A DNA stretch of 36,899 bases from the NCBI GenBank assembly GCA_903642275.1, contig CAHJWK010000034.1, positions 1 to 36,899 on the forward strand. The letters are read 5' to 3'. Within the stretch, counting starts at the first letter, position 1, and each line of letters starts with the position of its first letter. Below the pieces are notes generated by a model. The model was not told where the DNA came from. It made no database searches and saw only the letters and a list, made by a program, of their open reading frames with translations. This DNA comes from Chitinophagaceae bacterium. GTDB lineage: Bacteria > Bacteroidota > Bacteroidia > Chitinophagales > Chitinophagaceae. Shown piece by piece: positions 1 through 36,639 of this stretch. The translations under genes were made by a program, and so were the position numbers.

Positions 1-331
1 TGGTGCGTACGCCACTTCTCTTTTTTGTATTGTACTCAACGGCGTATTTGTCGAGTGCAGTAACCATGTGACGCATCACCTGCTCATCACGTAAAAGCTG
101 AATTTTCAACTTTTCATTGAAGGTGGATGGCGCACTAAATTCCATAACCCAGTAAATACCAGTGGTCTTTTTCTGGATTGGGTACGCCAGTGATTTTAAT
201 CCCCAGGGATTACTATGTGCTACATTTCCGCCGTTTTCAGAAACGAAATCAGCGTATTTTTTCTGAACGTTTTTAAATTCTTCGTCAGAGAGCACAGGGG
301 TAAAAATCACCATCAATTCATAATTGTTCAT
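1..331 (-). CDS. rpsF: 30S ribosomal protein S6 (C-terminus cut by window edge)
   Basis: A reading frame starts at the ATG at 331 and runs off the left edge after 110 codons without a stop. It begins MNNYELMVIFTPVLSDEEF and contains NPWGLKSLAYPIQKK and YWVMEF. These are the N-terminal strand, the central GxkkLAYPI segment and the following strand typical of S6, which binds 16S rRNA with S18 in the small subunit platform. In Bacteroidota rpsF is usually followed by rpsR and rplI, which would lie outside the window. A consensus promoter sits 43 bases upstream. Recognition is from family motifs; the C-terminal end is unseen. Confidence 0.95.
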   Translation of the reverse strand, partial: MNNYELMVIFTPVLSDEEFKNVQKKYADFVSENGGNVAHSNPWGLKSLAYPIQKKTTGIYWVMEFSAPSTFNEKLKIQLLRDEQVMRHMVTALDKYAVEYNTKKRSGVRT

Positions 332-373
332 TACCCTGTTTTGTTTTATTGTTTGAATAATAATTAAGGGCGG

Positions 374-404
374 CAAAGTTAAGCCGGAAATGCATACCAC
401 CCAA
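374..404 (-). promoter_or_regulatory. Bacteroidota-type promoter for rpsF
   Basis: On the minus strand TTG (402-404) is followed after exactly 20 bases by TAACTTTG (374-381). This fits the known Bacteroidota sigma factor consensus TTG/TTTG-N19-21-TAnnTTTG. It lies 43 bases before the rpsF start, giving an expected leader of roughly 35 bases. It is the only place in the window where I found both elements at the right spacing. Confidence 0.65.
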
Positions 405-417
405 CAGTATAAGAAGA

Positions 418-945
418 TTATTGGGCAAACACTTTAAGGCCAATATCTACATTGTTCCCCATAACAGCACTGCCGCCACCAACACTAAAATCTTTACGAT
501 TAATACTAAAGTTGCCTGTAAAAAGCATTCCATTATCCTGTTTTGCTGCTGTAAAAGGAAAAGAAATAGTTTTTGTTATGCCTTTAATTGTTAACTGCCC
601 GGTAACCGTATAATCTTTATCAGCGGCTTTAATTTCTGTTGAGACAAAACTTAAAGCTGGATATTTTTCAGCATTAAAATATTCTTCTTTTTTAAGGTGA
701 TTATCACGCATATCAATCCCTGTATTTATTGTATTTACATCAACTGATACATTAAATTTTGATGAAGCAATCTGTGCAGGATCAAAATTTATATCACCTT
801 TTAAGCCACTTAAAGTGCCGGATGTGTTGAGTCCAAAATTTTTTATAGTAAATTTTATTTCGCTTTTAGCATCAATAGGTTTGTATTGTTGCGTGAATAC
901 AGATGTTGCAAAAAACGCAAGCATTATCACTAAACTTATCTTCAT
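418..945 (-). CDS. YceI-family periplasmic polyisoprenoid-binding protein
   Basis: About 175 residues from the ATG at 945. The frame stays open to 972, but MKISLVIMLAFFATSVFTQQ is a clear signal peptide start, so 945 is preferred. The mature part shows YceI features: YKPIDAKSEIKFTIKN at the start, GLKGDINFDP, a central segment with DMRDNHLKKEEYFNAEKYP followed by ALSFVST, and LTIKGITKTISFPF. The family forms a lipocalin-like barrel that binds isoprenoid chains; characterised members bound octaprenyl pyrophosphate or polyprenoids. It is the gene after the UbiA-PKS-methyltransferase-oxidoreductase operon on the same strand, with a 66-base gap. A role in carrying a prenylated product or precursor through the periplasm is plausible, but is inference. 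YceI genes also occur alone, so linkage could be chance. Confidence 0.88.
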   Translation of the reverse strand: MKISLVIMLAFFATSVFTQQYKPIDAKSEIKFTIKNFGLNTSGTLSGLKGDINFDPAQIASSKFNVSVDVNTINTGIDMRDNHLKKEEYFNAEKYPALSFVSTEIKAADKDYTVTGQLTIKGITKTISFPFTAAKQDNGMLFTGNFSINRKDFSVGGGSAVMGNNVDIGLKVFAQ

Positions 946-1011
946 TCTTAGTTTATTTAAGTAGATATGCATGAAGCGGGCAAAGTTTACGATTCAAATT
1001 GTAAATCATTA

Positions 1012-2145
1012 TTAAAATGGTTGTCCATGTGTTGAGCGAATAATTTTTTTTGATAACAATGGAACTGCATTCATCAATTTTAGAAATAAACCTGTTGAAG
1101 TGTTATTACCCATAAACTGTTGTACGGTTCTTCCGGTTGCTAACCTGAATGAAAAATTTTTTCTCCAGCTACTTACATAATTTAATTCCATTTGTAATCG
1201 TGAAATTTTTTGTTTAAAAAATAAGTCAATTTGATTGAAAGCAAGCAAAGCGCCGTGCATTGCCATGCTCATACCATTGCCACAAAGTGGTGTTATCATT
1301 CCGGCTGCATCACCTAATAGTAAAATATGATTCTCGGTTTGATTTTTTTTTTGAAAACTGATTTGTGAAATAATTAGCGGCGATGTGTATAAAAATTCAG
1401 CGGTATTAAAAAGATTTTTAAGCAACGGATTTTTATATAAGATATTTTCCTGCATTTGTTCAATTGAATTATTGTTTGCTGAAAGATTACCTGCTGTTGT
1501 TAAATAGCACAAGCAATATTTATCTTCTTCAATAGCAGAGATACCGCAATAACCATTGTTGAAATTGTGCAAAGCAATCTCGTTTCTTGCATGATTTGAT
1601 CGAATATGGTATTTAACGCCAATATAATTATTAAGCTTGTTTGGTTTTTTATGTATGAATGAACGCTTCCATCTTACATCAAGATTGCTGCGTTTGCCAT
1701 AACTGCCTGCAGCTACAGTAACAGTAACATTTTTAATGTTTGTTTTAATGATGTGAACATCCTCTTCAAATAAAATATCATTCACTTTTGTATTAATAAA
1801 AACATCAACATCTTTACTTAAAGCAAGTTGGAACAATGCATCATCAATTTTGTAACGGCTGATTCCAAAGCCACCAAGTTCAAGCGGAAAATTATAAGCT
1901 TTACCTTTTATATCTGAAACCTGTAATTGTTTTATGGTTGGCAAATTCCATTCATCTAAAGGCAAACCCAAACGTTCTAAAAAATCATAGCTTTCAAGGC
2001 TTATGTATTCGCCACATACTTTATGATATGGGTATGTTTCTTTTTCAAACAGTGCTACTTTATAGCCAGCATCTGCAGCAAGTATTGATAATGATAAACC
2101 TGCAAGCCCGCCACCAATAATTCCTATATCATAATCAGGCTGCAT
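1012..2145 (-). CDS. FAD-dependent oxidoreductase, geranylgeranyl reductase / monooxygenase-like
   Basis: 377 residues, ATG at 2145. The N-terminus DYDIGIIGGGLAGLSLSILA (residues 4-23) is the FAD-binding GxGxxG fold; an acidic residue closes the second strand in ALFEKE. HKVCGE (41-46) is the KxCGE motif common in the geranylgeranyl-reductase and halogenase-like branch. LLLGDAAGMITPLCGNG (275-291) is the second FAD motif with GD at 278-279. The protein could hydroxylate or quinone-oxidise an aromatic ring, as the flavoprotein SrsC does in the Streptomyces srs phenolic-lipid pathway, or reduce prenyl double bonds. Motifs alone do not separate these. Its start overlaps the methyltransferase end by 11 bases, which indicates translational coupling and a shared pathway. 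Confidence 0.88.
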   Translation of the reverse strand: MQPDYDIGIIGGGLAGLSLSILAADAGYKVALFEKETYPYHKVCGEYISLESYDFLERLGLPLDEWNLPTIKQLQVSDIKGKAYNFPLELGGFGISRYKIDDALFQLALSKDVDVFINTKVNDILFEEDVHIIKTNIKNVTVTVAAGSYGKRSNLDVRWKRSFIHKKPNKLNNYIGVKYHIRSNHARNEIALHNFNNGYCGISAIEEDKYCLCYLTTAGNLSANNNSIEQMQENILYKNPLLKNLFNTAEFLYTSPLIISQISFQKKNQTENHILLLGDAAGMITPLCGNGMSMAMHGALLAFNQIDLFFKQKISRLQMELNYVSSWRKNFSFRLATGRTVQQFMGNNTSTGLFLKLMNAVPLLSKKIIRSTHGQPF

Positions 2146-2842
2146 GTTTGTATGAAATTAAATAACGGAAAGCCCATTTCCATTCAATACTAAAGTTAAT
2201 AATGCCTGCACCTTTAAAAATCTTCATCCATTCATTTTTATGAAAGCCGCGTGCTACACTTAGTGGCGCATCATGCTTAACCAAATAAGATTTTGAAAAA
2301 AGTTGTGTAATAATTTTTATAGAATGATAGGCAAACCAGTTGCGTTGCAAATCATTTATAAAGAAGCCAACAGTTGAATTAAGTCTCATCCATTGCAGTT
2401 GTTGTATTAATTGTTCTTCTGTGAAATGATGACAAAACAAACTTGAAAAAATGATGTCTGGTTTTTGATTAAAATTAACTACGCTGTAATCTTTCGCAAT
2501 CCATTCAGCATTTAAAGAGTTATAGTTTTTTTTAGCTGCATCAATACATTCCTGTTTAATATCAATCCCTGTTATAACTAAAGTAACATTATTTTTTTTA
2601 CACCATTTTTTTATTATAAAAAGATTATTTCCGTCGCCAGAACCAATTTCGCAAACATGAACAGACTTCCTTTTTTTAATTAATTTTTTAAATCCATCTA
2701 ATGTTATTTTATGGCCGCCAAGTAACGTATTAATGGTATTTATTTCCTGCATGTTAATGCATACATCTTCAAACGGAATCGCATCATTATCCAGTAATTC
2801 TTTTTTATAAGAACGATGGCGAAGATTTATTGCTTTGTGCAT
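2135..2842 (-). CDS. Class I SAM-dependent methyltransferase
   Basis: 235 residues, ATG at 2842. SAM-binding motif I is VHVCEIGSGDGNNLF (61-75), followed by an acidic residue after the second strand in VITGIDIKQECIDAAKK. The segment PDIIFSSLFCHHFTEEQL is the usual motif IV region. Such enzymes methylate O or C atoms of small molecules. It overlaps the polyketide synthase gene upstream by 16 bases and the oxidoreductase gene downstream by 11 bases, so the polyketide or its prenylated derivative is the likely substrate. In the Streptomyces srs cluster an analogous methyltransferase (SrsB) acts on the alkylresorcinol made by a type III PKS; that comparison is by gene set, not by alignment. Confidence 0.88.
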   Translation of the reverse strand: MHKAINLRHRSYKKELLDNDAIPFEDVCINMQEINTINTLLGGHKITLDGFKKLIKKRKSVHVCEIGSGDGNNLFIIKKWCKKNNVTLVITGIDIKQECIDAAKKNYNSLNAEWIAKDYSVVNFNQKPDIIFSSLFCHHFTEEQLIQQLQWMRLNSTVGFFINDLQRNWFAYHSIKIITQLFSKSYLVKHDAPLSVARGFHKNEWMKIFKGAGIINFSIEWKWAFRYLISYKHAA

Positions 2843-3921
2843 AAAAATGTTTCCATCGTTAAGCCGGGGCCAAAAGCCGCACCCAAAATATTAGCAGGTT
2901 CATCATCTTTAAGGTTACCTATAATTTCTTTCAGCACGAATAAAACCGTTGGTGAAGACATGTTACCATAACGGCTTAAAATATCTTTTGAAAAACGCAT
3001 ATCATCACTGTTAAGATGCAACTGTTTCTGTATAGCGGAAATAATTTTCTTTCCACCAGGATGTATGCACCAATGCGTTATATCTTTTATATCATGCCCT
3101 GAATGTTTTGCAGCCTCATCAACCAGCGCTTGAATATCCTGTTCAATTAGATCTGGTATATAACTGCTTAGCGTAATAATAAAACCTTTATGACTCAGCT
3201 CCCATGCCATATCTTTTTTGCCGCGATAAGCAACCTTTGAATAAAAATCTGTAAGCTCAATTTTTTTTGATGAAGACAATTTATTTGAAATTAAAACAGC
3301 AGCACTGCCATCAGAAAATAAAATAGTGCTTGATGCACTGTCCGGCGTATATTCTTTTTGAAAATGAATAGAACAGAACTCAGTGGCAACAATTAATACG
3401 TTTGAACTTGGCGTGCTTAAGCAAATTAATTTGGCAAGCTTTAACGCATGCACCGCACCATAACAACCCATAAAGTTTACAGAGGTTCTAAACACCTGCG
3501 GCTGCATATCCATCATTTCTGCTATCTGCAAATCAAGACCCGGGGCACTCATACCTGTGCAGCTGACTGTAATTAAATGTGTAACATCCTGCGGCTTTAT
3601 AATATCTTTTAAACAATCATTTATTGCCAGTATAGATAATGGCAATGCTTCACGGTTATAAATCTTCATGCGCTCATCCAAATTTGGCATCGGCTCATCC
3701 TGCGTAGCAGAAACAAAATTCCATGCACCTTCATTAGAAAAATTACTGTAATCAGACAATACTGAATATCTTGTTTCAATATCACTTTGCCTGTACATGA
3801 ATGCAAGCCTGCGTGCTTCAACTGCATCAAGACCATAAATTTTTTGCATCATAGGTATCACATCTTTCTGCTTAAAACTGTGCTCTGGCACTGCTGTTCC
3901 TATCGAAATAATTTCAATCAA
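2827..3921 (-). CDS. Type III polyketide synthase (chalcone/stilbene synthase family)
   Basis: 364 residues, normal for the family. The catalytic triad is visible: Cys153 in NFMGCYGAVHALK, His287 in HWCIHPGGKK and Asn320 in RYGNMSSPTVLFVL. Other signatures are THLITVSCTGMSAPGLDL near 114-131 and FGPGLTMET near 350-358. These enzymes condense malonyl-CoA units onto an acyl-CoA starter and cyclise the chain to a phenol, pyrone or resorcinol. The start is TTG at 3919-3921, one base after the UbiA stop. The next Met is at residue 24, after the conserved N-terminal strand, so TTG is very probably the true start. FabH was considered, but the CHS-type Cys/His/Asn contexts fit type III PKS better. 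The starter unit and product cannot be read from the sequence. Confidence 0.93.
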   Translation of the reverse strand: MIEIISIGTAVPEHSFKQKDVIPMMQKIYGLDAVEARRLAFMYRQSDIETRYSVLSDYSNFSNEGAWNFVSATQDEPMPNLDERMKIYNREALPLSILAINDCLKDIIKPQDVTHLITVSCTGMSAPGLDLQIAEMMDMQPQVFRTSVNFMGCYGAVHALKLAKLICLSTPSSNVLIVATEFCSIHFQKEYTPDSASSTILFSDGSAAVLISNKLSSSKKIELTDFYSKVAYRGKKDMAWELSHKGFIITLSSYIPDLIEQDIQALVDEAAKHSGHDIKDITHWCIHPGGKKIISAIQKQLHLNSDDMRFSKDILSRYGNMSSPTVLFVLKEIIGNLKDDEPANILGAAFGPGLTMETFLCTKQ

Positions 3922-3922
3922 A

Positions 3923-4777
3923 TTATTGTAATATTAATAAAGTTATAAATGCAAGGTTTGTACAGGTTGATGCAAAAATATTCATGCGCATAGTATGTTT
4001 AAAATCAGCATTAACAACATCTTTACTAATCTTAAAAAACCATACCACAAAAAATATAAGCACAGGTGCAAAAAATATTGATATGATACTAAACAGAAAT
4101 AAATGCTGAATTGAATTGAAATAATAAAATAATAAACCAAAAACTATTGCATAAATGATTAGGCAAAAAATAAACGTACCTTTTTTGCCAAGTAACATGC
4201 TTATGGTTTTTACATTATCTGCTGCATCATCTTTATGCTGATATATTTGTGTTATAGGATAAAAGCCACCAATTAATAACGTGGCGCATAATATTCCAAT
4301 GAACGGAGCACCAGCGTTTACATTTTTACAGGCTGCGTGAAACACGGTGTAAAAGATAAGGCTACCCTGGTTTAATATTACAACTAAATAACCAATCAAT
4401 GCATATTGTTTTAAGCGGATTTTGCGATAGCTGTACAAACGAGAAAAAAGAATATAAATAAAAATGCACGTTGCAGTTGCCGGTGATATGATTAATGATA
4501 ACAACACACTCATTACATCCATTACAACGGTAAAAAAAAATAATTGTTTGGTAGGCTGAAGTGGCTTTTTAACACCACCGATACTTGATGTATCTCTGTC
4601 CATATAACTATTATAGCCGTTGCTTGCCGGATATACGAATACATGCAAAATCAAAAAAATAAAAATAGCATTTTTGATATTAAGGTTGCCTGCAAAAGAT
4701 AGCGCAAACCAGTAAACCGGCATTAAAAAGAAAGAAAATGGGAAACGCAAAAGTTGTATAGTTGATTTTTGTATCAA
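3923..4777 (-). CDS. UbiA-family membrane prenyltransferase
   Basis: 284 residues, mostly hydrophobic with about eight or nine membrane segments. The first Asp-rich motif is seen as NGYNSYMDRDTSSIGG (53-68; Asp60, Asp62). The second is YQHKDDAADNVKTISMLLG (179-197; Asp183, Asp184, Asp187). These bind Mg-prenyl diphosphate in UbiA enzymes, which prenylate aromatic rings in the membrane. The first motif is not the exact NDxxDxxxD pattern, so the acceptor may be unusual. The start is TTG; a stop lies six codons upstream and no ATG occurs before residue 19. It is the first gene of the tightly packed operon, one base ahead of the PKS gene. A menaquinone or heme enzyme (MenA, CyoE) is less likely given these neighbours. 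Confidence 0.9.
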   Translation of the reverse strand: MIQKSTIQLLRFPFSFFLMPVYWFALSFAGNLNIKNAIFIFLILHVFVYPASNGYNSYMDRDTSSIGGVKKPLQPTKQLFFFTVVMDVMSVLLSLIISPATATCIFIYILFSRLYSYRKIRLKQYALIGYLVVILNQGSLIFYTVFHAACKNVNAGAPFIGILCATLLIGGFYPITQIYQHKDDAADNVKTISMLLGKKGTFIFCLIIYAIVFGLLFYYFNSIQHLFLFSIISIFFAPVLIFFVVWFFKISKDVVNADFKHTMRMNIFASTCTNLAFITLLILQ

Positions 4778-4830: not shown

Positions 4831-6420
4831 TTATTTTAAAACTTCCAGTGCTTTTTTTACGACCGGGTCATTATCGTTGCTTAATTCAAAATAACCTTCT
4901 GTTCTCCATATTTGCCTTGCCAGCAAATCTTCCATTTCACTCAACACAAAATTTTTAGATATTGTCGTTACAGAATTAAGATTTACAGAATCCTGCTTTG
5001 CATAATTATTAAGCTGTTGCCATTCTTTTTCACCAGGATGAAATTGTTTATAAAACTGGTCCGGCGATTTATATTGTTGGAGCGCATCTTTGTTTTCAAT
5101 GTAATAATTGTAAGCAAAATTGCGCAACGTGCCGTTGGCAAACAATTGCATTACAGCTTTTGGTTGTGATGTGGTATCATAAGCCACAAATATATCAGGC
5201 GTTATACCGCCGCCGCCATAAACAACATGTCCTTCTGGTGTTTTAAACGCAGGCCCTTTTGGTTTTGCAGTATCGCCTGTTACCAGTTCACCATCGTGAA
5301 AACGGTTTATAAGTTCCTGTTCATATTGCGCCTTACCTTTATCATAAGGCTTCTGAATATTTCTGCCCAGCGGCGAATAATATCTTGCTACGGTTAAACG
5401 CATTTGAGAATTATCAGATAATGTAAATTGTTCCTGCACCAATCCCTTACCAAAAGTTCTTCTCCCGATAATAGTTGCCCTGTCCCAATCCTGCAAAGCG
5501 CCGGCAAGTATCTCACTGGCTGATGCAGATGTTTCATCAACAAGCACTGTTAATTTTCCTGTTTCAAAAACACCTTCTTTATCACACCTGTAATCCGTTC
5601 GTGCCGAATGTGCACCTTGCGTATAAACAATCAGTTTATTGCCATCTAAAAACTCATCTGCAATTTCTATGGCCTGCTGCATTATACCGCCGCCATTATC
5701 CCGCAGGTCAAGAATAAGCTGCTGCATGTGTTGTTGCTTCAGTTTATCCATTGCAGCCATAAATTCATGATAGGTGGTTTCAGAAAATTTATTCAGTTTG
5801 ACATAGCCCGTATTAGCGTTAATCATATACGCAGCATCAAGCGAAAACAACGGAATATTGCCTCGTACAATTTTAATTTTTCTTTGCTGGCTGCCCCGCA
5901 TCACCACAATGTTTACATCACTATTTACAGGGCCGCGTAATTGTTTGCGCACATCGTCAACAGAAACTTTTTTGCCGGTAAGATTGAATGTATCATTTGC
6001 TTTGATAATCTTATCACCAATCTGCACACCGGCTTTAAATGAAGGCCCGTCAGATATAACATTCATTACATTTACTGTATCATTTATCATCTGAAACTCA
6101 ACACCAATGCCCTGAAAATTACCCTGCAAATCTTCATTCATACTTTCAATATCAGCAGCAGGAATATAAATAGAATGCGGATCAAGGTTATCAAGCAAAC
6201 CATTTATTGCGGGTGATTCAAGACTATCTAAACGTACATTATCAACATATTTATTTCGTATAAGATTGATAGCTTCTTCAAGCGGTGAACGATTATTATT
6301 TTTTAAAAATGAATTTCCGCCGGAGGTATTTTCACGAAGCCGGTAACCGATGATCATTCCGAAAATCATTACCAGCGAAAAAATCAAAGGCAGCCAAACC
6401 TGAACTTTTTTCTTAACCAT
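4831..6420 (-). CDS. C-terminal processing peptidase, S41 family, with PDZ domain
   Basis: 529 residues. An N-terminal membrane anchor or uncleaved signal (about 8-26) is followed by a helical part, a PDZ domain around 95-185 (FQGIGVEFQMINDTVNVM, GPSFKAGVQIGDKIIKAN) and the protease core. Catalytic residues are Ser300 in DETSASASEILAGAL, Lys325 in RRTFGKGLVQEQ and Gln329; the 25-residue Ser-Lys spacing equals that of Prc and CtpB. LILDLRDNGGG (235-245) is the usual core strand. The C-terminal 150 residues have no clear motif. These proteases trim or degrade envelope proteins in the periplasm. The UbiA gene begins 53 bases downstream on the same strand, so read-through is possible, but a functional link is not indicated. 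Confidence 0.95.
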   Translation of the reverse strand: MVKKKVQVWLPLIFSLVMIFGMIIGYRLRENTSGGNSFLKNNNRSPLEEAINLIRNKYVDNVRLDSLESPAINGLLDNLDPHSIYIPAADIESMNEDLQGNFQGIGVEFQMINDTVNVMNVISDGPSFKAGVQIGDKIIKANDTFNLTGKKVSVDDVRKQLRGPVNSDVNIVVMRGSQQRKIKIVRGNIPLFSLDAAYMINANTGYVKLNKFSETTYHEFMAAMDKLKQQHMQQLILDLRDNGGGIMQQAIEIADEFLDGNKLIVYTQGAHSARTDYRCDKEGVFETGKLTVLVDETSASASEILAGALQDWDRATIIGRRTFGKGLVQEQFTLSDNSQMRLTVARYYSPLGRNIQKPYDKGKAQYEQELINRFHDGELVTGDTAKPKGPAFKTPEGHVVYGGGGITPDIFVAYDTTSQPKAVMQLFANGTLRNFAYNYYIENKDALQQYKSPDQFYKQFHPGEKEWQQLNNYAKQDSVNLNSVTTISKNFVLSEMEDLLARQIWRTEGYFELSNDNDPVVKKALEVLK

Positions 6421-12768: not shown

Positions 12769-14403
12769 TTAATTTCCAAACAAATCGTATTTGGTTTTAG
12801 GCCTTCTTTCATCAAGCCATTTAAAACCACGCAACCGCATGTCATCAGGGTTCATTTGCCGCATTGGATAACTTGTTCCGTTCAGGTTATTTCTAAACAC
12901 CACGCGTTGTGCTTCCTTATTGGCGAAATACATATCAATTACATCTGCTGTTGCCTGGTTTACACCAATAAATTTACTGCTGTCGTCCTGTCCATAATAT
13001 ATACTTTCTGAATTGCCTTTTACATGCACATGCTCAATATCACCATTCACAAAAAAAGCGTTCAGCGTTCTTCCTTTTACCTGGTTGTAATAATCCGGCC
13101 CAACCATTTGAACGCTTAAAGCGTTTTCATACACATACATGCGTTTTGGTTGTTTGTTTTGTGTGAATACATAAATCGTATCACCGGTTACCTGGCTTGC
13201 ACGGCTCCATACAACAGGGTTTTTAAATAACCGAAACGCAGAATCTTCAGACGAATAAAACAAGCTGTCACCAACAGCCTGCAAAGAATCAGAATAAATT
13301 TTCACTTTATAATATGCTTCAATATAACGGTCAGTTGCACTGTCTTTTTTTGATGACACAGAATCAATTACACGTATGGAATCTTTTACTGGCAATGAAT
13401 CAAGAATTGTGGGAACATTCCGGTATTTGCGCAGGTTAGAAAGTCTTGCAGTAAATAATGTATCAGCTGCCAGGTAAATAGAATCTTTATCCTGCTTGAT
13501 AATCATGATAGGATTTTGCGTTGCCAGTAAGGATGATACTTTACCATTAGTCTTCAGGTTGTTTGAAAGCAACGTTAAGCCCTGCGCAGTATCTTTATAA
13601 ACAGAGTTACCACTCGCCTCACTTTGTTGTGTTGAATCATCTGAAGCTACTTCATTTGCATCAAGCGTTGTAGTGCTGTCTTCAATATGCGGCCGCAGGT
13701 TAAAGTAAGCTTTCTTATTTTTCATATCATAATATCCGCCTGACGTAAGTATCCTTCTTTTTTTAGCACCTTTGATTATAGTAGGCACTGTAAAAGTTGC
13801 AATGCTTGTATAAGTATTATATAACAATGTATCTGTTGTAACATGATAATCAGGATTTACCAGCACTACATTTTTTTTGAAATACACATTCTTTGTTTCA
13901 CCATAATAATAACCTTCCTGGCTGGTAAGCACCGTTTTATCGCTAACAACTTTTCCTGTTTTGGTATATATACCGATATGTGTGTTCATATCATAATCAA
14001 GATCGGGTGTAGTTAATACACCGGTATTATCAACCAGTTTAACATTACCGCTTAAATATGCTTTTTTTTCATTGCCGTGATAGCGCAAGTAATCAGAATA
14101 AATATTGATGCTGTCATTATCATTTATATGTACATGACCAAAAGCTTCCATTGTGTTGCTTGTTTTATTAAGCACAACGCTATCGCAATACAATAAAGTT
14201 GTTTCCTGTTTCAGTATTACTTTACCTACGGCTGATTGAAATTCTGCAGAATCTTTTTTCTGATAATTAAGCCGCTCTGCATTAATAATGTTTATATTTT
14301 TTTTGCCAGATGTATCTGTACGCGGCTGTTGTGCCTTAACTGAAAAAGTAAAAAGTAAAAAACAAGAAGTAAAAAAAGAAAATATGAATCGTGTAGCCTT
14401 CAT
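12769..14403 (-). CDS. OstA-like (LptA-type) envelope transport protein
   Basis: 544 residues with a signal peptide (MKATRFIFSFFTSCFLLFTF, cleavage near AQQ). The first 200 residues show repeating OstA-type beta-jellyroll strands: INAERLNYQKKDSAEFQSAV, VGKVILKQETTLLYCDSVVL, FGHVHINDNDSINIYSDYL and YLSGNVKLVDNTGVLTTPDL. Later parts repeat the same style (YYKVKIYSDSLQAVGDSLF; RTLNAFFVNGDIEHVHVKGN). OstA/LptA proteins form the periplasmic bridge that carries LPS to LptD. The length is typical of the Bacteroidota OstA-like proteins and larger than E. coli LptA. Its start overlaps the MlaD-like stop by one base (TAATG), so the two are coupled. Confidence 0.85.
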   Translation of the reverse strand: MKATRFIFSFFTSCFLLFTFSVKAQQPRTDTSGKKNINIINAERLNYQKKDSAEFQSAVGKVILKQETTLLYCDSVVLNKTSNTMEAFGHVHINDNDSINIYSDYLRYHGNEKKAYLSGNVKLVDNTGVLTTPDLDYDMNTHIGIYTKTGKVVSDKTVLTSQEGYYYGETKNVYFKKNVVLVNPDYHVTTDTLLYNTYTSIATFTVPTIIKGAKKRRILTSGGYYDMKNKKAYFNLRPHIEDSTTTLDANEVASDDSTQQSEASGNSVYKDTAQGLTLLSNNLKTNGKVSSLLATQNPIMIIKQDKDSIYLAADTLFTARLSNLRKYRNVPTILDSLPVKDSIRVIDSVSSKKDSATDRYIEAYYKVKIYSDSLQAVGDSLFYSSEDSAFRLFKNPVVWSRASQVTGDTIYVFTQNKQPKRMYVYENALSVQMVGPDYYNQVKGRTLNAFFVNGDIEHVHVKGNSESIYYGQDDSSKFIGVNQATADVIDMYFANKEAQRVVFRNNLNGTSYPMRQMNPDDMRLRGFKWLDERRPKTKYDLFGN

Positions 14404-15510: not shown

Positions 15511-16440
15511 TTACTGGCTGCTGTCTGTTACCGGGCGGAAAGAATTTGTTTCTAATGAAGTTTTATATTTCTGAACTGCTTTAGTAATGCATTCGCATAT
15601 TTCCTGCTGACCATTTACGCTGTTTAAATAATCTTCATCAGAAGGCGTGGATATGTAACCTGTTTCTACCAGTATGCTTGGCATTGCTGTAGCTTGCAAA
15701 ACCCAAATTCCTACTTGTCTTTGCCGGGCACCATTCACAACACGGCCAACTTTTTCCAATTCATCCTCCACATCTAATGCAATGTTCGCGCTACGGTTAA
15801 AAAGTTGCTGCGTTTTAAGTGATGATAATATTCTTCCTTCGGGAGAATCAGCATCAAAATCTTCCACCTGTTGAGTACTGTCAATATATAAAGATTCATT
15901 TTCGCGCATGGCTAATTCTTTATCTTCATTTTTATGCGCTGCCCATATGTATGTTTCCGTACCGGTTACAGGGTTTTGCGTATACCATGTGCGGTATATG
16001 GGCACCTGCCTGCTATGCTTTTTTTTCTTTCTGCCTTTGCCGGTATAATACGTTTCTGATTTATGACCTATAACTTCACTATGCCTCACTTTAGGCACTG
16101 AGTTGCAGTGAATACAAATAAATAAATCACCTTTTGCTGCATTGGCTTTATTAGCCTTGACCGGTGGCGGGTCAAACACATCTGTAGTACGTGTCATCAC
16201 AATTTTTACATCAGGCATTGCCTGCTGCAATACTGTTTGCAGTTTTAGTGCTATTGCAAGCGCTACATTTTTTTCATAAGAATATTTACCTGCCGCACCA
16301 AAATCTTTGCCACCATGCCCGGCATCAATTACGATGGTGCGTAGCGTATTTTGTTTAGGTGATGATGGAGGAATTTTAAATGAAGCAAACAATATCGTTA
16401 TCAATAAAAAGAATAAACCGTCTCCAATTTTTTTTTGCAT
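15511..16440 (-). CDS. N-acetylmuramoyl-L-alanine amidase, Amidase_3 family
   Basis: 309 residues from the ATG at 16440 (MQKKIGDGLFFLLITILFAS, a signal peptide). The frame extends seven codons further upstream. Zinc and catalytic residues are visible: His42 in TIVIDAGHGGKD, Glu56 in SYEKNVALAIAL, His111 in DLFICIHCNS and Glu259 in SILVETGYIS. An insert with KGRKKKKHS sits between the His111 motif and the C-terminal part, about residues 120-180. Such insertions regulate access to the active site in some AmiA/B/C enzymes; here that is inference. The enzyme cleaves the stem peptide from muramic acid in the periplasm. It is the first gene of the amidase > MlaD > OstA-like series, divergent from lptD. 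Confidence 0.93.
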   Translation of the reverse strand: MQKKIGDGLFFLLITILFASFKIPPSSPKQNTLRTIVIDAGHGGKDFGAAGKYSYEKNVALAIALKLQTVLQQAMPDVKIVMTRTTDVFDPPPVKANKANAAKGDLFICIHCNSVPKVRHSEVIGHKSETYYTGKGRKKKKHSRQVPIYRTWYTQNPVTGTETYIWAAHKNEDKELAMRENESLYIDSTQQVEDFDADSPEGRILSSLKTQQLFNRSANIALDVEDELEKVGRVVNGARQRQVGIWVLQATAMPSILVETGYISTPSDEDYLNSVNGQQEICECITKAVQKYKTSLETNSFRPVTDSSQ

Positions 16441-16492
16441 GATGTGGTTCGTTAAAAACATTCCTTTACAAATCTTTTATAGTATTAAACTA

Positions 16493-16518: not shown

Positions 16519-19233
16519 ATGTTTACCCGTTATAAAGTTTGCGCAAATATAAAACCGGCAATAATTCTTTTTTGCCTCTTATGCCTTATAACGTTACCAT
16601 TACTTGCTAACAATAAGTGGAAAATTAAATTTCCAAAATCATTAACAGTTATCACAGATACAGTTCCTGTAAAAAAATTTGATTCGATTCATGCTAAAAA
16701 AAATAATGGCCGCCCGTTAAAAACAACTGACTCTGCTTTAGTTAACACACCTGATACTTCAATTAACGATTCATCAAAGCGTATAACAGCTGATACGCTA
16801 TTGCTATCAAAAGATTCAATTGATGCGCCTGTAAATTATACTGCACAAGATAGTGGTGTTCTGCTCATCCCCAACAAGCAATTCATTTTATACGGCAAGG
16901 CAAACACGGACTATAAAGATATTAAGCTTGATGCCAACACCATACAGTATGATCAGCAATCACACATCATTACAGCTTATGGCGGTACAGATACTTCAAC
17001 TGACAACCCGCTTAACAAACCCAAGTTTACACAAGCCGGTTCAGAATCTATCATGGATACCGTTATATACAATCTTAAATCTGAAAAGGGAATAACAAGA
17101 AACACCTATTATAAAGAAGGTGAGATGTTTGTAAATTCAGAAACGGTAAAGAAAGTAGATAAAGATGTAGTGTATGCTTTTCGCGGAAGATTTACAACCT
17201 GCAATCTTGATACACCGCATTTTGATATACGTGCAAGAAAGATTAAGATCATTAATAATAAGATTGCCGTTTCAGGACCTGCCTTCCCGGAGTTTGAAGG
17301 CGTGCCTATTCCTATCCCGATTCCGTTTGGTATTTTTCCATTAAACCGCGGCAGGCATTCCGGCTTGTTACCGCCGCGCTTTACCAATAGCGAAACGTTT
17401 GGTCTTGGCCTTGAAGGCATAGGATTTTATAAAGTGATAAGTGATGACTGGGATGTTACCACACAGGGTGATTTATATTCTTATGGTGGCTGGAAGCTGG
17501 ATATAAACCCCAAATATTATAAGCGATATAAATACCGGGGCAGCCTTACCGTAAGTGCACAACATACAAAATCGCTCAATACTACATTTGGCTCTAAGCA
17601 AGAGTTTACTACCGGCAATACGTATAATATATTATGGAACCACTCTTCTGATTCAAAAGCAAGGCCCGGTACCAGTTTCAGCGCCAGTGTAAATGCCGGC
17701 AGCACTAAGTATAATACTTATCTCACAGATAATGCTTTCCGCAATTATGATAATAACCTTGCATCAAATGTTTCTTATAATAAAACGTGGGATGAAGGAA
17801 AGTATAACTTTAGTGCTTCATTAAGTGAGAACCAGAACAGTGTAAGCAGGCTTATAAATCTTAATGCACCTACTGTTGCATTTACAGTTGCAACCATCTA
17901 TCCTTTTCAAAATCCTAATGCACCATCCAGTTCAAAATGGTATCAGAAATTAGGCATTGGCTATACCGGCAATCTTTTAAATGTTATTTCATTTTATGAT
18001 TCAGCTATAAACTTTAAACGCATTTTAGATACCATTCAATGGGGTGCGGATCACCGCATTCCCATTACACTTTCATTACCGCCGGTTGGTCCGTTCATTA
18101 TTACACCAGCAATTAGTTATGAGGAAAGATGGTTTGCACAAAAAATTATTTATACGTATGACGATAAGAAATTCAAAGTTGATACAAGCATTAAAAGAGG
18201 ATTTTATGCAGCCCGGGAAGTAACGTTTGGTTTAAGTACAAGCACCCGCATTTTCGGAACCTATAATTTCAGTCATTCAAAAGGTATATTAGCCATACGG
18301 CATGAAATAGATCCGTTCATTGGCATAAGTTATAAGCCTGATCTTGTAAGCCAGTTTTATCAGAATATAAAAACAATATCAGGGCAAACTGTAAGAATAT
18401 CACAACTCAGCGGCAATGTATTAGGCGGCTTTAGTGAAACACGGTTTGGCGGTTTAAACTTTGGTATAAATAATTTGCTTGAAATGAAAACCAGGAACCG
18501 CAAAGACTCAACCGGGGCAGATAGTGTGAAAAAAATAAGGCTGCTTGATAATTTAAGTATAACCGGCGGATATAATTTTATTGCGGACAGTCTTAACTGG
18601 CAGTCTATAAGCATAAGAGCAGGCAGCAGTTTGTTTAATAAAGTAAATATCAGCGGCGGAGCCACTATTGATCCTTATCAAAAAGATATTAATAATAAGA
18701 GCGTATTGTTGTGGAAACATGGAAAGCTGGGCAACCTTGAGTCAGGAAATCTTTCTTTATCTACTTCTTTACAAAGTAAATCAAAAGACAAGCGAAGTGA
18801 TGATAACCGTTTAACACCGGATGAAACAATAACACCGGATGAGCAGCAGCAGGAACTGCAATACGTGCGCAGCAACCCTGGAGAGTTTGTTGATTTTAAT
18901 ATACCCTGGTCAGTGCAGACTTCTTTCTCATTAAATTATACGCATTATCTTTCATCAGACCTTGTTCATTTTATTTCTCAACTAAATTCAAACTTAAATG
19001 TAAATGGAGATTTAAGTATTTCGCCAAAGTGGAAAGTTGGCGGTGGATTTTATTTTGATTTCAGAACAGAGAAGATAGCTGCAACAAGCATCTATCTTAC
19101 CAGGGACATGCATTGCTGGCAAATGGTGATTGATGTAAACGTCGGTCGTTATAAATCGTTTACCATCACACTAAATCCAAAATCAGGCATACTTAGAGAC
19201 CTTCATATAAATAAACATTTTCTTCAGCAATAA
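16519..19233 (+). CDS. lptD: LptD-like outer-membrane LPS assembly protein
   Basis: 904 residues. A hydrophobic N-terminal segment (about 11-30, PAIILFCLLCLITLPLLA) is the export signal. A Thr/Asp/Ser-rich linker is followed by an OstA-type periplasmic domain (about 125-250: YGKANTDYKDIKLDANTIQY, CNLDTPHFDIRARKIKIINN). Then comes the LptD junction FPEFEGVPIPIPIPFGIFPL and a large beta-barrel with alternating strands to the C-terminus. LptD inserts LPS into the outer leaflet. Conserved disulfide-forming cysteines of E. coli LptD are not obvious; only a few cysteines occur. The nearby OstA-like gene fits the same transport route. Confidence 0.88.
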   Translation: MFTRYKVCANIKPAIILFCLLCLITLPLLANNKWKIKFPKSLTVITDTVPVKKFDSIHAKKNNGRPLKTTDSALVNTPDTSINDSSKRITADTLLLSKDSIDAPVNYTAQDSGVLLIPNKQFILYGKANTDYKDIKLDANTIQYDQQSHIITAYGGTDTSTDNPLNKPKFTQAGSESIMDTVIYNLKSEKGITRNTYYKEGEMFVNSETVKKVDKDVVYAFRGRFTTCNLDTPHFDIRARKIKIINNKIAVSGPAFPEFEGVPIPIPIPFGIFPLNRGRHSGLLPPRFTNSETFGLGLEGIGFYKVISDDWDVTTQGDLYSYGGWKLDINPKYYKRYKYRGSLTVSAQHTKSLNTTFGSKQEFTTGNTYNILWNHSSDSKARPGTSFSASVNAGSTKYNTYLTDNAFRNYDNNLASNVSYNKTWDEGKYNFSASLSENQNSVSRLINLNAPTVAFTVATIYPFQNPNAPSSSKWYQKLGIGYTGNLLNVISFYDSAINFKRILDTIQWGADHRIPITLSLPPVGPFIITPAISYEERWFAQKIIYTYDDKKFKVDTSIKRGFYAAREVTFGLSTSTRIFGTYNFSHSKGILAIRHEIDPFIGISYKPDLVSQFYQNIKTISGQTVRISQLSGNVLGGFSETRFGGLNFGINNLLEMKTRNRKDSTGADSVKKIRLLDNLSITGGYNFIADSLNWQSISIRAGSSLFNKVNISGGATIDPYQKDINNKSVLLWKHGKLGNLESGNLSLSTSLQSKSKDKRSDDNRLTPDETITPDEQQQELQYVRSNPGEFVDFNIPWSVQTSFSLNYTHYLSSDLVHFISQLNSNLNVNGDLSISPKWKVGGGFYFDFRTEKIAATSIYLTRDMHCWQMVIDVNVGRYKSFTITLNPKSGILRDLHINKHFLQQ

Positions 19234-33900: not shown

Positions 33901-36639
33901 ATGAAAACAATTTTTTACTTAACATTCAGCATTAGCTTTTTGTTTATACAGATAGCAAATGCACAAAACACATTTCCATCAAGCGGAAGCGTAGGCATTG
34001 GAACAACATCACCAGCTTCATCATCATTACTAGAAATTAAATCAACAACAAAAGGTTTGCTTATTCCACGCATGACGCAAACACAAAAAAATGCTATCAC
34101 GTCGCCTGTAACAGGATTATTAATTTATCAAACAGATAATTTTCCTAGCTTTTATTATTACGATGGCGCTGCATGGAGCATTATCGGTTATTGGAAACGT
34201 AATGGTACTTCTGTTTTTTTTAGTTCAGGTAACGTTGGCTTTGGAACGCTTTCACCTGCTTATAAAATTGATGTGAAAGGTGGTGATATTAATTTAAGTG
34301 CAGGCAACTATTTAAGAATAGGCGGCACTAAAGTTTTTTACGACAACCCTGCTGCTGGTAATAATAACGTTTTTCTCGGTGATTATACTGATACGGCATT
34401 ATCAACAGGCTTTAGAAACACAGCAGTTGGTTCTTTGTCGCTCAGTAAAAATACTGCAGCTTATAATACTGCGGTTGGTTCAACCAGTTTGCAAAATAAT
34501 ACAACAGGCAGTTCCAATACAGCAATTGGTGAGAAGGCAATGATAAGTAATACGAAGGGAAGCAATAACACTGCCATAGGCTCAGGAGCTTTATACAGCG
34601 ATACTACTTCGGGTTATAATACTGCCGTTGGTTTTCAAAGTTTATATTTTAATCAAAGAAGCTATAACACAGCGGTGGGCTACCAATCTTTATATCATGA
34701 TACTTCAGGATTTAATAATACAGCAAATGGTCCTTTCTCATTATATTCTAACACTACAGGATATAATAATGTAGCCATAGGCATAAATTCATTATATGCA
34801 AATACAACAGGAGGAGATAATACAGGTATTGGAGCGTATGCATTAACTTCTAACACAACGGGCACTGCAAATACTGCTACAGGTCTCTATGCCATGTATT
34901 TCAATACCACAGGCTCTTATAATACAGCAAATGGATTAGATGCCCTGAGCCGCAATAGCAGCGGTGTTTATAATACAGCGAATGGATTTGATGCATTATA
35001 TTATGATACAACCGGTTCTTATAATACTGCAAACGGCAGCTATGCTTTATTTTATAATGCTAATGGAAGTGATAATGTAGCAAACGGTTATCAGGCTTTA
35101 GAAAATAATACCACAGGTGCTGATAATACAGCGAATGGTTACCAGGCTTTGCTGGATAATACAACCGGATCAACGAATACTGCAAATGGTTATAATGCTT
35201 TAGCCTCTAATACAACAGGAATTCAAAACACTGCGAACGGCGGCGGTTCGCTTGCACGTAATACTACAGGGAGTTATAACACAGCAAATGGATTAACCAC
35301 CCTGTTTAATAATACCACAGGCAATTATAATACAGCGGAAGGATACTCAGCGCTTTATGACAATACTACCGGCAGTGGACTCACTGCTGTTGGTACAGTT
35401 GCATTAGGCATTAATACTTCAGGTAGTCAAAATACTGCAGTTGGTGATAGTGCTCTTATGACTAATACCTCAGGCAGTGCCAATACTGCAAGCGGAAATT
35501 ATACGCTTCTTTTTAATACCACTGGAACTTTGAATACAGCAATGGGTGTGCAGGCTTTAAGAAATAGTAATGGACATGATAATACTGCAGTAGGTGTAAA
35601 TGCAATAGTTAGTAATACTACAGGTAGCCAATGCACTGCTATTGGAAGCGGCGCTTTATTTGGAAGCACAGGTGATAATAATACAGCTATTGGTTACCTC
35701 GCAGATATGAACCCGACAAATATTACTAATGCAACGGCTGTTGGTGCTTATGCAGTTGCTACAGCGTCCAACCAGGTTATGCTTGGTAGTACTTCTATTA
35801 CATCAGTAAAAGCAGCGGGGAGTTTTGTTGTTTATTCTGACGGAAGGTTTAAGAAAAATATTAATTCAGATGTTCCGGGGCTTGCCTTCATCAAACAACT
35901 AAAACCGGTTACTTACAATTATGATATACATGGATTGAATAATCATATTAAAGGGTCAAACAATGATAACCAAACTTCACTTGCGGCAAAGCAAGAAAAC
36001 GAAAATGCTATCAATGCTAAAGAGAAAGTAAAATATACAGGCTTTGTTGCACAGGATGTAGAAGCTGCTGCTAAAAAAATAAATTATGATTTTAGTGGTT
36101 TGTATAAACCGCAAAATGAACATGATGCTTATGGATTAAGTTATGCTGATTTTGTTGTACCGCTGGTTAAAGCAGTACAGGAATTAAGTACGCAAAACGA
36201 TTCATTAAAACAGAACAATGCAACACTTCAATCTGATAATATTTTATTACATCAGCAGCTAAATAATATTAATACAAAGATCAGTCAAATTGAAAGTGCG
36301 ATGAGCCAGTGTTGCAGCAACTTTTCATCAAATATGCAATCAGTAATAAATGAACAAAGCTTACAAAAAAATAATGATGCAGCAAGATTAGAACAGAACA
36401 TTCCAAATCCATTTAATAGCAGCTCTTCTATCAGTTATTATATCCCTTCAGGTATTCACGCTGCACAATTAATGATTACAGATATTGGAGGGCATGTTTT
36501 AAAAACATATAGTCTTTCACAAAGTGGTTATGGGAAACAAATTATTTCCGGCGGTGAATTAACAAGCGGCACTTATCAATATTCTTTATTGATTGACGGA
36601 AAATTAATTGACACTAAAAAAATGATTTTATCTAAATAA
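33901..36639 (+). CDS. Repeat adhesin-like surface protein with S74 chaperone domain and T9SS signal
   Basis: 912 residues. Signal peptide MKTIFYLTFSISFLFIQIAN. An N-terminal module (SGSVGIGTTSPASSSLLEIK, LLIPRMTQTQKNA) is common in Bacteroidota tail-fibre-like proteins. About 26 repeats of 17 residues follow (about 170-630), consensus NTAxGxxALxxNTTGxx, resembling the beta-roll of YadA-type trimeric heads. A peptidase S74 chaperone domain starts at Ser646 (YSDGRFKKNI) and includes KPVTYNYDI, YTGFVAQDVE and GLSYADFVVPLVKAVQEL. A coiled coil comes next. The end (LEQNIPNPFNSSSSISYYIP to KKMILSK) is a T9SS sorting domain. It is probably a trimeric fibre exported by T9SS and fixed to the cell surface. 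Confidence 0.93.
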   Translation: MKTIFYLTFSISFLFIQIANAQNTFPSSGSVGIGTTSPASSSLLEIKSTTKGLLIPRMTQTQKNAITSPVTGLLIYQTDNFPSFYYYDGAAWSIIGYWKRNGTSVFFSSGNVGFGTLSPAYKIDVKGGDINLSAGNYLRIGGTKVFYDNPAAGNNNVFLGDYTDTALSTGFRNTAVGSLSLSKNTAAYNTAVGSTSLQNNTTGSSNTAIGEKAMISNTKGSNNTAIGSGALYSDTTSGYNTAVGFQSLYFNQRSYNTAVGYQSLYHDTSGFNNTANGPFSLYSNTTGYNNVAIGINSLYANTTGGDNTGIGAYALTSNTTGTANTATGLYAMYFNTTGSYNTANGLDALSRNSSGVYNTANGFDALYYDTTGSYNTANGSYALFYNANGSDNVANGYQALENNTTGADNTANGYQALLDNTTGSTNTANGYNALASNTTGIQNTANGGGSLARNTTGSYNTANGLTTLFNNTTGNYNTAEGYSALYDNTTGSGLTAVGTVALGINTSGSQNTAVGDSALMTNTSGSANTASGNYTLLFNTTGTLNTAMGVQALRNSNGHDNTAVGVNAIVSNTTGSQCTAIGSGALFGSTGDNNTAIGYLADMNPTNITNATAVGAYAVATASNQVMLGSTSITSVKAAGSFVVYSDGRFKKNINSDVPGLAFIKQLKPVTYNYDIHGLNNHIKGSNNDNQTSLAAKQENENAINAKEKVKYTGFVAQDVEAAAKKINYDFSGLYKPQNEHDAYGLSYADFVVPLVKAVQELSTQNDSLKQNNATLQSDNILLHQQLNNINTKISQIESAMSQCCSNFSSNMQSVINEQSLQKNNDAARLEQNIPNPFNSSSSISYYIPSGIHAAQLMITDIGGHVLKTYSLSQSGYGKQIISGGELTSGTYQYSLLIDGKLIDTKKMILSK

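Follow-up and report, generated by a model that had tools for sequence, protein, structure and literature searches.

Prenylated phenols of polyketide origin have been described for the agq cluster of the actinomycete Actinoplanes missouriensis (cited in PMC10896814, PMC7692728 and PMC4044012), which consists of four genes, agqA-D (PMC7692728). According to a title cited in PMC7692728, its products are alkyl-O-dihydrogeranyl-methoxyhydroquinones; as summarised in PMC10896814, alkylresorcinols made by a type III polyketide synthase (PKS) are then prenylated and hydroxylated, and PMC4044012 mentions a membrane prenyltransferase that O-prenylates a small polyketide. The kind of pathway considered here therefore has a precedent. 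We describe a four-gene set in a 36,899-nucleotide stretch of DNA from a Chitinophagaceae bacterium (the window; assembly GCA_903642275.1, contig CAHJWK010000034.1), encoding in this order a UbiA-superfamily membrane prenyltransferase (UbiA), a type III PKS, a class I S-adenosylmethionine (SAM) methyltransferase (MT) and a flavin adenine dinucleotide (FAD)-dependent oxidoreductase, followed by a gene for a YceI-like protein. We conclude with high confidence that the four-gene set is a real, widely conserved functional unit, and consider it probable that it encodes a short pathway to a prenylated membrane phenolic lipid. The observations concern the genes, their linkage and co-occurrence, the predicted folds and the conserved catalytic residues.

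The five open reading frames (ORFs) all lie on the minus strand, with the spacing given by the first-pass annotation of the window: a 1-base gap between UbiA and PKS (3922), an overlap of 16 bases between PKS and MT (2827-2842) and one of 11 bases between MT and FAD (2135-2145). The YceI start follows the FAD gene by 39 bases.

Conservation was analysed in two genome samples. The PKS query matched 144 of 294 genomes of a family sample at E≤1e-10, and 110 of 395 genomes of a class sample at E≤1e-20; within the latter, the main PKS subfamily was defined by E≤1e-50 (75/395 genomes, about a fifth of the sample), the other 35 matches being more distant. The UbiA query matched 85 of the 395 class genomes at E≤1e-12. 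Neighbourhoods reaching about 6 kb either side of the PKS were fetched at 80 loci: 40 came from the 144 family positives, taken close to the ranking top with four passed over, and 40 from the 110 class positives; the set therefore leans to closer homologues. With the window these are 81 loci, and 93 with 12 PKS loci added later (one from a genome already sampled).

The order UbiA>PKS>MT>FAD, a search for which had been proposed in the first-pass annotation, was found contiguous in 52 of the 81 loci, and all four genes lay inside the fetched stretch in 63. Near the PKS, UbiA was present in 74 loci, MT in 70 and FAD in 68. The UbiA subfamily was found in every one of the 75 class genomes with the main PKS, and all seven fetched loci without UbiA near the PKS had it elsewhere in the genome. 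MT was absent near the PKS in 11 of the 81 loci, and nine of the 11 genomes concerned have it elsewhere; FAD was absent nearby in 13 and present elsewhere in all 10 genomes searched (G107, G367 and G514 lay outside the search). Ten of the 12 added loci carried all four genes, the other two carrying three and a weak FAD match. Two large genomes of family f68, G637 and G531, have PKS, UbiA and FAD and may represent an unmethylated variant. Other arrangements occur as well. FAD>UbiA<PKS>MT> was seen in six loci (also in L049-L051 and L053, which are named records), PKS>MT>FAD> with a divergent UbiA in five, of which one has YceI further on, and the order PKS-MT-FAD-UbiA in L177-L179.

Conversely, a UbiA match was found in only 10 of the 320 class genomes without the main PKS. 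In two of these ten, UbiA lies next to a fragment of the PKS at the edge of a contig (L169, L170), two have a weaker PKS match (G570, G606), one (G636, L168) has UbiA alone on the fetched stretch, and in the remaining five the UbiA match is weak or divergent (E 1e-17 to 8e-39). The two loci fetched from these five, L171 (G330) and L172 (G303), have no PKS nearby and lack the invariant UbiA motif; their UbiA relatives may form a neighbouring subfamily. The UbiA matches of G391 and G570 are broken by stop codons, and are possibly broken genes or assembly errors. A distant type III PKS (about 27-35% identity) is carried by 35 of the 395 class genomes, nine of them in family f55; the UbiA subfamily was present in 2 of these 35 genomes and absent from 33.

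Rough estimates of the ratio of non-synonymous to synonymous substitution (dN/dS) were 0.07-0.21 across all five genes and, as the order is moreover kept across several families, the observation is not a product of chance. Chance linkage of the four genes was ruled out by the conserved order over several families together with the 75/75 co-occurrence. Pairwise distances correlated at r 0.85-0.90 for every gene pair (63 loci), and a PKS tree made by a quick method, with 29 of its 89 inner branches well supported, mostly grouped rows by family. In that tree the PKS of L094 (G487, family f29), which has the full operon, is nested in the clade of the window family, likely a transfer within the class. 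In L097, L113, L123 and L126, four loci of two families, a gene for a short-chain dehydrogenase, possibly an extra tailoring enzyme, follows the PKS on its strand at 2.7-3.1 kb, directly past the operon. Further operon members were sought by clustering neighbouring ORFs, which returned mostly lineage synteny. COX1 was found in 376 of the 395 class genomes, and all 19 genomes that lack it also lack the PKS (Fisher p 0.031); this association is weak and confounded by kinship, and was therefore left out as support for a link with aerobic respiration.

Outside the class, a sample of the phylum contained 86 genomes with a PKS at about E 1e-50 or better (85 at ≤1e-50; G682 at 1.6e-50). Among the 80 searched for UbiA, the subfamily was found in three, all of one family (f79, E≤3e-56), 34 gave weak UbiA matches only (70 bits or less) and 43 gave none. 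In 20 neighbourhoods, UbiA stood beside PKS and MT twice (f79); the other 18 were 12 PKS-MT-FAD trios and six PKS genes alone. A plasmid collection had 182 records matching the PKS and none matching the UbiA query; profile search found PKS, MT and FAD together in 10 of the 12 regions fetched, in Deinococcus, Sphingobium, Methylobacterium, Microvirga, Paracoccus, Psychrobacter, Paenibacillus and the planctomycete Paludisphaera, the two Deinococcus FAD matches being weak (26-27 bits). The Rhizobium and Streptomyces regions were without the full trio (Streptomyces judged by annotation). The PKS on a plasmid of the Antarctic gammaproteobacterium Psychrobacter urativorans (L134, 6989-9812) shares 39% identity with that of the window and falls among Bacteroidota PKSs in the quick tree; MT and FAD are present on that stretch, UbiA is absent, and it looks like a transfer between phyla. 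Because of this distribution of the genes across lineages, the PKS-MT-FAD trio seems to be the older unit, which UbiA joined in or near this class, becoming obligatory there.

The catalytic residues of the PKS reported as intact in the window, Cys153, His287 and Asn320, were invariant in all 81 PKSs. Seven pocket positions were likewise fixed in 81/81, and identical in 8 of 11 outside PKSs (Deinococcus, Methylobacterium, Microvirga, Paracoccus, Paenibacillus, Psychrobacter and one Sphingobium), with one difference in Paludisphaera, one in the second Sphingobium and two in Rhizobium. The gatekeeper, at the position of Phe265 of chalcone synthase (CHS) as placed through alignments with Pks18 and Steely1, is Met in 75 of the 81, Ile in five (the window and its genus) and Leu in one. 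Pks18 and Steely1 are also the best homologues in the PDB, and these enzymes form pyrones and acylphloroglucinols. The best NCBIfam match of the PKS is DpgA, below its cut-off (152.7 versus 425). Since starter and cyclisation are not fixed by sequence alone, these matches would suit a PKS that makes a pyrone, an acylphloroglucinol or a short-chain ring, prenylated by UbiA into a meroterpenoid secondary metabolite rather than an alkylresorcinol lipid. We regard this as unlikely, as the pocket residues largely match those of trio PKSs from other phyla, and six of the seven positions are shared with a planctomycete PKS (order MT-FAD-PKS) whose kin make alkylresorcinols according to PMC10896814. 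More precisely, that source gives alkylresorcinols as the yield of planctomycetal trio PKSs in C. glutamicum, and a Met at the CHS Phe265 position is reported for the HidC clade in PMC8086630.

The UbiA protein carries the motifs N56-S-x-x-D60-x-D62 and Q180-x-x-x-D184. Its Asp-rich motifs, which had been noted from the sequence, are there in part: N56, D60, D62 and D184 are retained, but in the NxxxDxxxD motif the +8 Asp is not conserved and the first Asp of DxxxD is replaced by Gln180 in all 74 UbiA proteins, a departure from the canonical form. Tyr173 is invariant at another canonical Asp position, and Lys123 is retained. The predicted fold is nearest to UbiA structures with bound prenyl diphosphate. 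Against NCBIfam the protein gave three matches in all, the best, a chlorophyll-synthase model, at 32 of the 212 bits needed; the cut-off of a MenA, CyoE or 4-hydroxybenzoate (4-HB) UbiA equivalog was not reached, and a MenA or CyoE identity was rejected by these scores. A grouping with MenA or CyoE and no linkage with the PKS had been named beforehand as speaking against the operon; the protein has no such NCBIfam match and is linked with the PKS. By its residues, this set of UbiA proteins appears to be a branch with changed metal-site residues. The invariant Gln180 and Tyr173 could alter donor or chemistry, and one might then suppose that UbiA does not prenylate the PKS product, but acts as some other membrane transferase or serves to make a lipid of its own, the linkage reflecting shared regulation. 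This is very improbable: UbiA accompanies the PKS in 75/75 class genomes, even if unlinked, versus 3/80 outside the class; N56, D60, D184 and Lys123 are retained; and PMC4044012 points to a precedent for a membrane enzyme that O-prenylates a small polyketide.

None of the NCBIfam matches listed reaches its cut-off (for FAD, among the best 25 of 47 families); in Pfam, the models passed by MT and FAD are those of general families. The MT scores 101 bits against a PRK06202-like model (cut-off 243), and its homologues occur in trios. The predicted fold of the FAD enzyme is that of aromatic hydroxylases and halogenases, and halogenases are the top matches; the W-x-W-x-I motif of flavin-dependent halogenases was present in 0 of 68 FAD proteins, and a halogenase was rejected on this ground despite the fold matches. 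Among the NCBIfam matches listed, the top one for FAD is TIGR02032, the geranylgeranyl reductase family (89.2 bits), and the agq product bears a dihydrogeranyl group by the title cited in PMC7692728; the enzyme might thus act on the prenyl chain, as a reductase of its double bonds, and not as a ring hydroxylase. We judge this improbable, as the TIGR02032 score is under the cut-off of 158.8, the nearest folds among the matches listed are aromatic hydroxylases and halogenases, and relatives of the enzyme sit in trios lacking UbiA, so that its job need not depend on a prenyl group.

We keep to ring hydroxylation in the pathway proposed for the four genes, whose substrates and step order we infer as follows. 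The type III PKS would extend a fatty-acyl starter, in these bacteria probably iso-C15 or C17, by three malonyl units and close the ring to a 5-alkylresorcinol. The FAD enzyme would then hydroxylate the ring and the MT methylate one oxygen, giving an alkyl-methoxyhydroquinone able to cycle to the quinone. Probably last, UbiA would move a prenyl group from a presumed donor onto the phenol in the membrane, by O- or C-prenylation. The product class would accordingly be a prenylated alkyl-methoxyhydroquinone or quinone, an assignment of its chemistry that we hold to be somewhat better than even. The first-pass annotation had proposed a single operon for a prenylated, methylated and oxidised phenol or quinone; this reading finds support in linkage, 75/75 co-occurrence, trio homologues and folds, which all fit, the product itself being putative.

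Several points weigh against this reading. The product is a prediction from the genes. The canonical Asp positions lost in UbiA mean that donor or reaction could differ, and the gatekeeper is Ile, not Met, in all five rows of the window genus. The FAD match was weak (20-46 bits) in 8 of the 12 trios outside the class, and the FAD enzymes may therefore not share one function. No MT match was found at 1e-8 in G637 and G531 (family f68). The resemblance to agq is one of enzyme classes, and that to the hid-like trios one of gene content and pocket positions, rather than of sequences compared with AgqA-D or Hid proteins. As far as PMC10896814 goes, the role of the FAD enzyme in the trio of G. maris is left open and its MT is probably a C-methyltransferase.

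A wider reading is tentative, and in our view unlikely: many aerobic Bacteroidota might have a second lipoquinone, two-tailed and derived from a polyketide, serving as membrane redox carrier or antioxidant and handled by YceI in some lineages. The two tails, equally conjectural, might be an alkyl chain of PKS origin and an isoprenoid contributed by a dedicated branch of UbiA enzymes that has an Asp-motif chemistry of its own. Aerobic Bacteroidota are generally regarded as relying on menaquinone alone. For Mycobacterium tuberculosis, polyketide quinones are reported to carry electrons (Anand et al. 2015, cited in PMC10896814), so that a test of the quinone reading is worthwhile.

The trailing isoprenoid-binding protein of the first-pass annotation is there, as a YceI gene, but it is optional: a YceI gene on the strand of the operon and no more than 100 bases away was seen in 8 of the 93 loci (the window; L054 and L055, of one genus; L090, L095, L099, L124 and L182). 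With 2-7 YceI genes per genome in 10 genomes, mostly chosen for YceI lying near the operon, rough arithmetic gives about 0.1 case of adjacency by chance. PMC10896814 likewise describes a planctomycetal type III PKS operon accompanied by a gene for a lipid/isoprenoid-binding protein. We take YceI as a recurrent helper, not a core part; where present, it may carry the lipid in the periplasm.

Features of the window, with the domain matches that identify them (aa, amino acids)
Feature	Coordinates	Strand	Remarks
UbiA-superfamily membrane prenyltransferase, 284 aa	3923..4777	-	TTG start; Pfam PF01040 73 bits (cut-off 34.2)
Type III polyketide synthase, 364 aa	2827..3921	-	TTG start; Pfam Chal_sti_synt N/C 98/88 bits
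Class I SAM methyltransferase, 235 aa	2135..2842	-	Pfam Methyltransf_25 37 bits
FAD-dependent oxidoreductase, predicted aromatic hydroxylase/halogenase fold, 377 aa	1012..2145	-	Pfam FAD_binding_3 37 bits
YceI-like lipid/isoprenoid-binding protein, 184 aa	418..972	-	Optional neighbour; Pfam PF04264 129 bits
ORF at contig start, after YceI	2-400	-	Ribosomal protein S6, judged by eye only
S41 peptidase gene	4831-6420		53 bases upstream of UbiA
OstA-like	12769-14403	-
N-acetylmuramoyl amidase	15511-16461	-
LptD	16519-19233	+
912-aa protein	33901-36639	+	Peptidase_S74 (endosialidase chaperone) domain at 646-725

Elsewhere in the window, OstA-like, amidase and LptD genes form an outer-membrane assembly neighbourhood, and several short ORFs precede the Peptidase_S74 protein, three of which were scanned, none with a Pfam match. 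An Rfam scan of the window gave nothing at gathering score. The source genome has four UbiA genes besides the operon copy.

The first-pass annotation knew of no characterised product for this gene set in Bacteroidota, and this stands after a literature search, in which no characterisation of this set in the phylum was identified among papers judged mostly by title and abstract start, with subscription journals mostly outside. The set, present in 75/395 class genomes, predicts a membrane lipid not found assigned in the literature searched. If this lipid is redox active, a phylum treated as menaquinone-only would gain a further type of quinone; if it is not, there remain a set of enzymes for making prenylated alkylphenols and a UbiA branch whose metal-site residues are changed. 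Trios with and without UbiA in related lineages offer a natural experiment on the contribution of prenylation, and the set can be tested directly in carriers that are in culture, among them Parafilimonas terrae (L039) and Algoriphagus marinus (L049).

Among known systems, agq (Awakawa et al. 2011, known here from citing papers) would have a type III PKS, a methyltransferase, an oxygenase and a UbiA enzyme in one cluster as here, agqB-D being the putative methyltransferase, hydroxylase and UbiA genes. A characterised cluster with the same order and a known product had been sought as a counter-example, and agq comes near it by its putative enzyme classes, but has another gene order. It differs further in belonging to an actinomycete rather than to Bacteroidota, where the UbiA Asp motifs are altered and UbiA co-occurs with the main PKS in every class genome sampled (75/75). 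The hierridin-like hidABC and planctomycetal MT-oxidoreductase-PKS operons also hold together a PKS with the Cys-His-Asn triad, a methyltransferase and an FAD oxidoreductase; the Paludisphaera trio PKS shares all but one of the seven pocket residues, and the gatekeeper is Met in most members here, but the window genus has Ile and the usual hid form is without UbiA. As the hid order MT-oxidoreductase-PKS is not matched here (PKS-MT-FAD), we call the set trio-like and not a hid operon, noting that PMC8086630 mentions a predicted prenyltransferase for one cyanobacterium, Raphidiopsis mediterranea. At the losA locus of Micromonospora endolithica (loseolamycins), an alkylresorcinol synthase gene lies near UbiA prenyltransferase and methyltransferase genes, but with an acyl-CoA dehydrogenase gene in place of the FAD oxidoreductase (PMC7587189), and in the main text of that paper 'prenyl' occurs only in the gene table. 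In Streptomyces srsABC, alkylresorcinols are oxidised to alkylquinones (SrsA, PMC10896814). A prenyltransferase is absent from srsABC, unlike here. SrsB and SrsC are said to have roles in the alkylresorcinol-to-alkylquinone conversion, and the srs methyltransferase reportedly belongs to another family. On this comparison we would place the Bacteroidota set, with its altered UbiA, as a variant of a kind of prenylated-phenol pathway that is known already.

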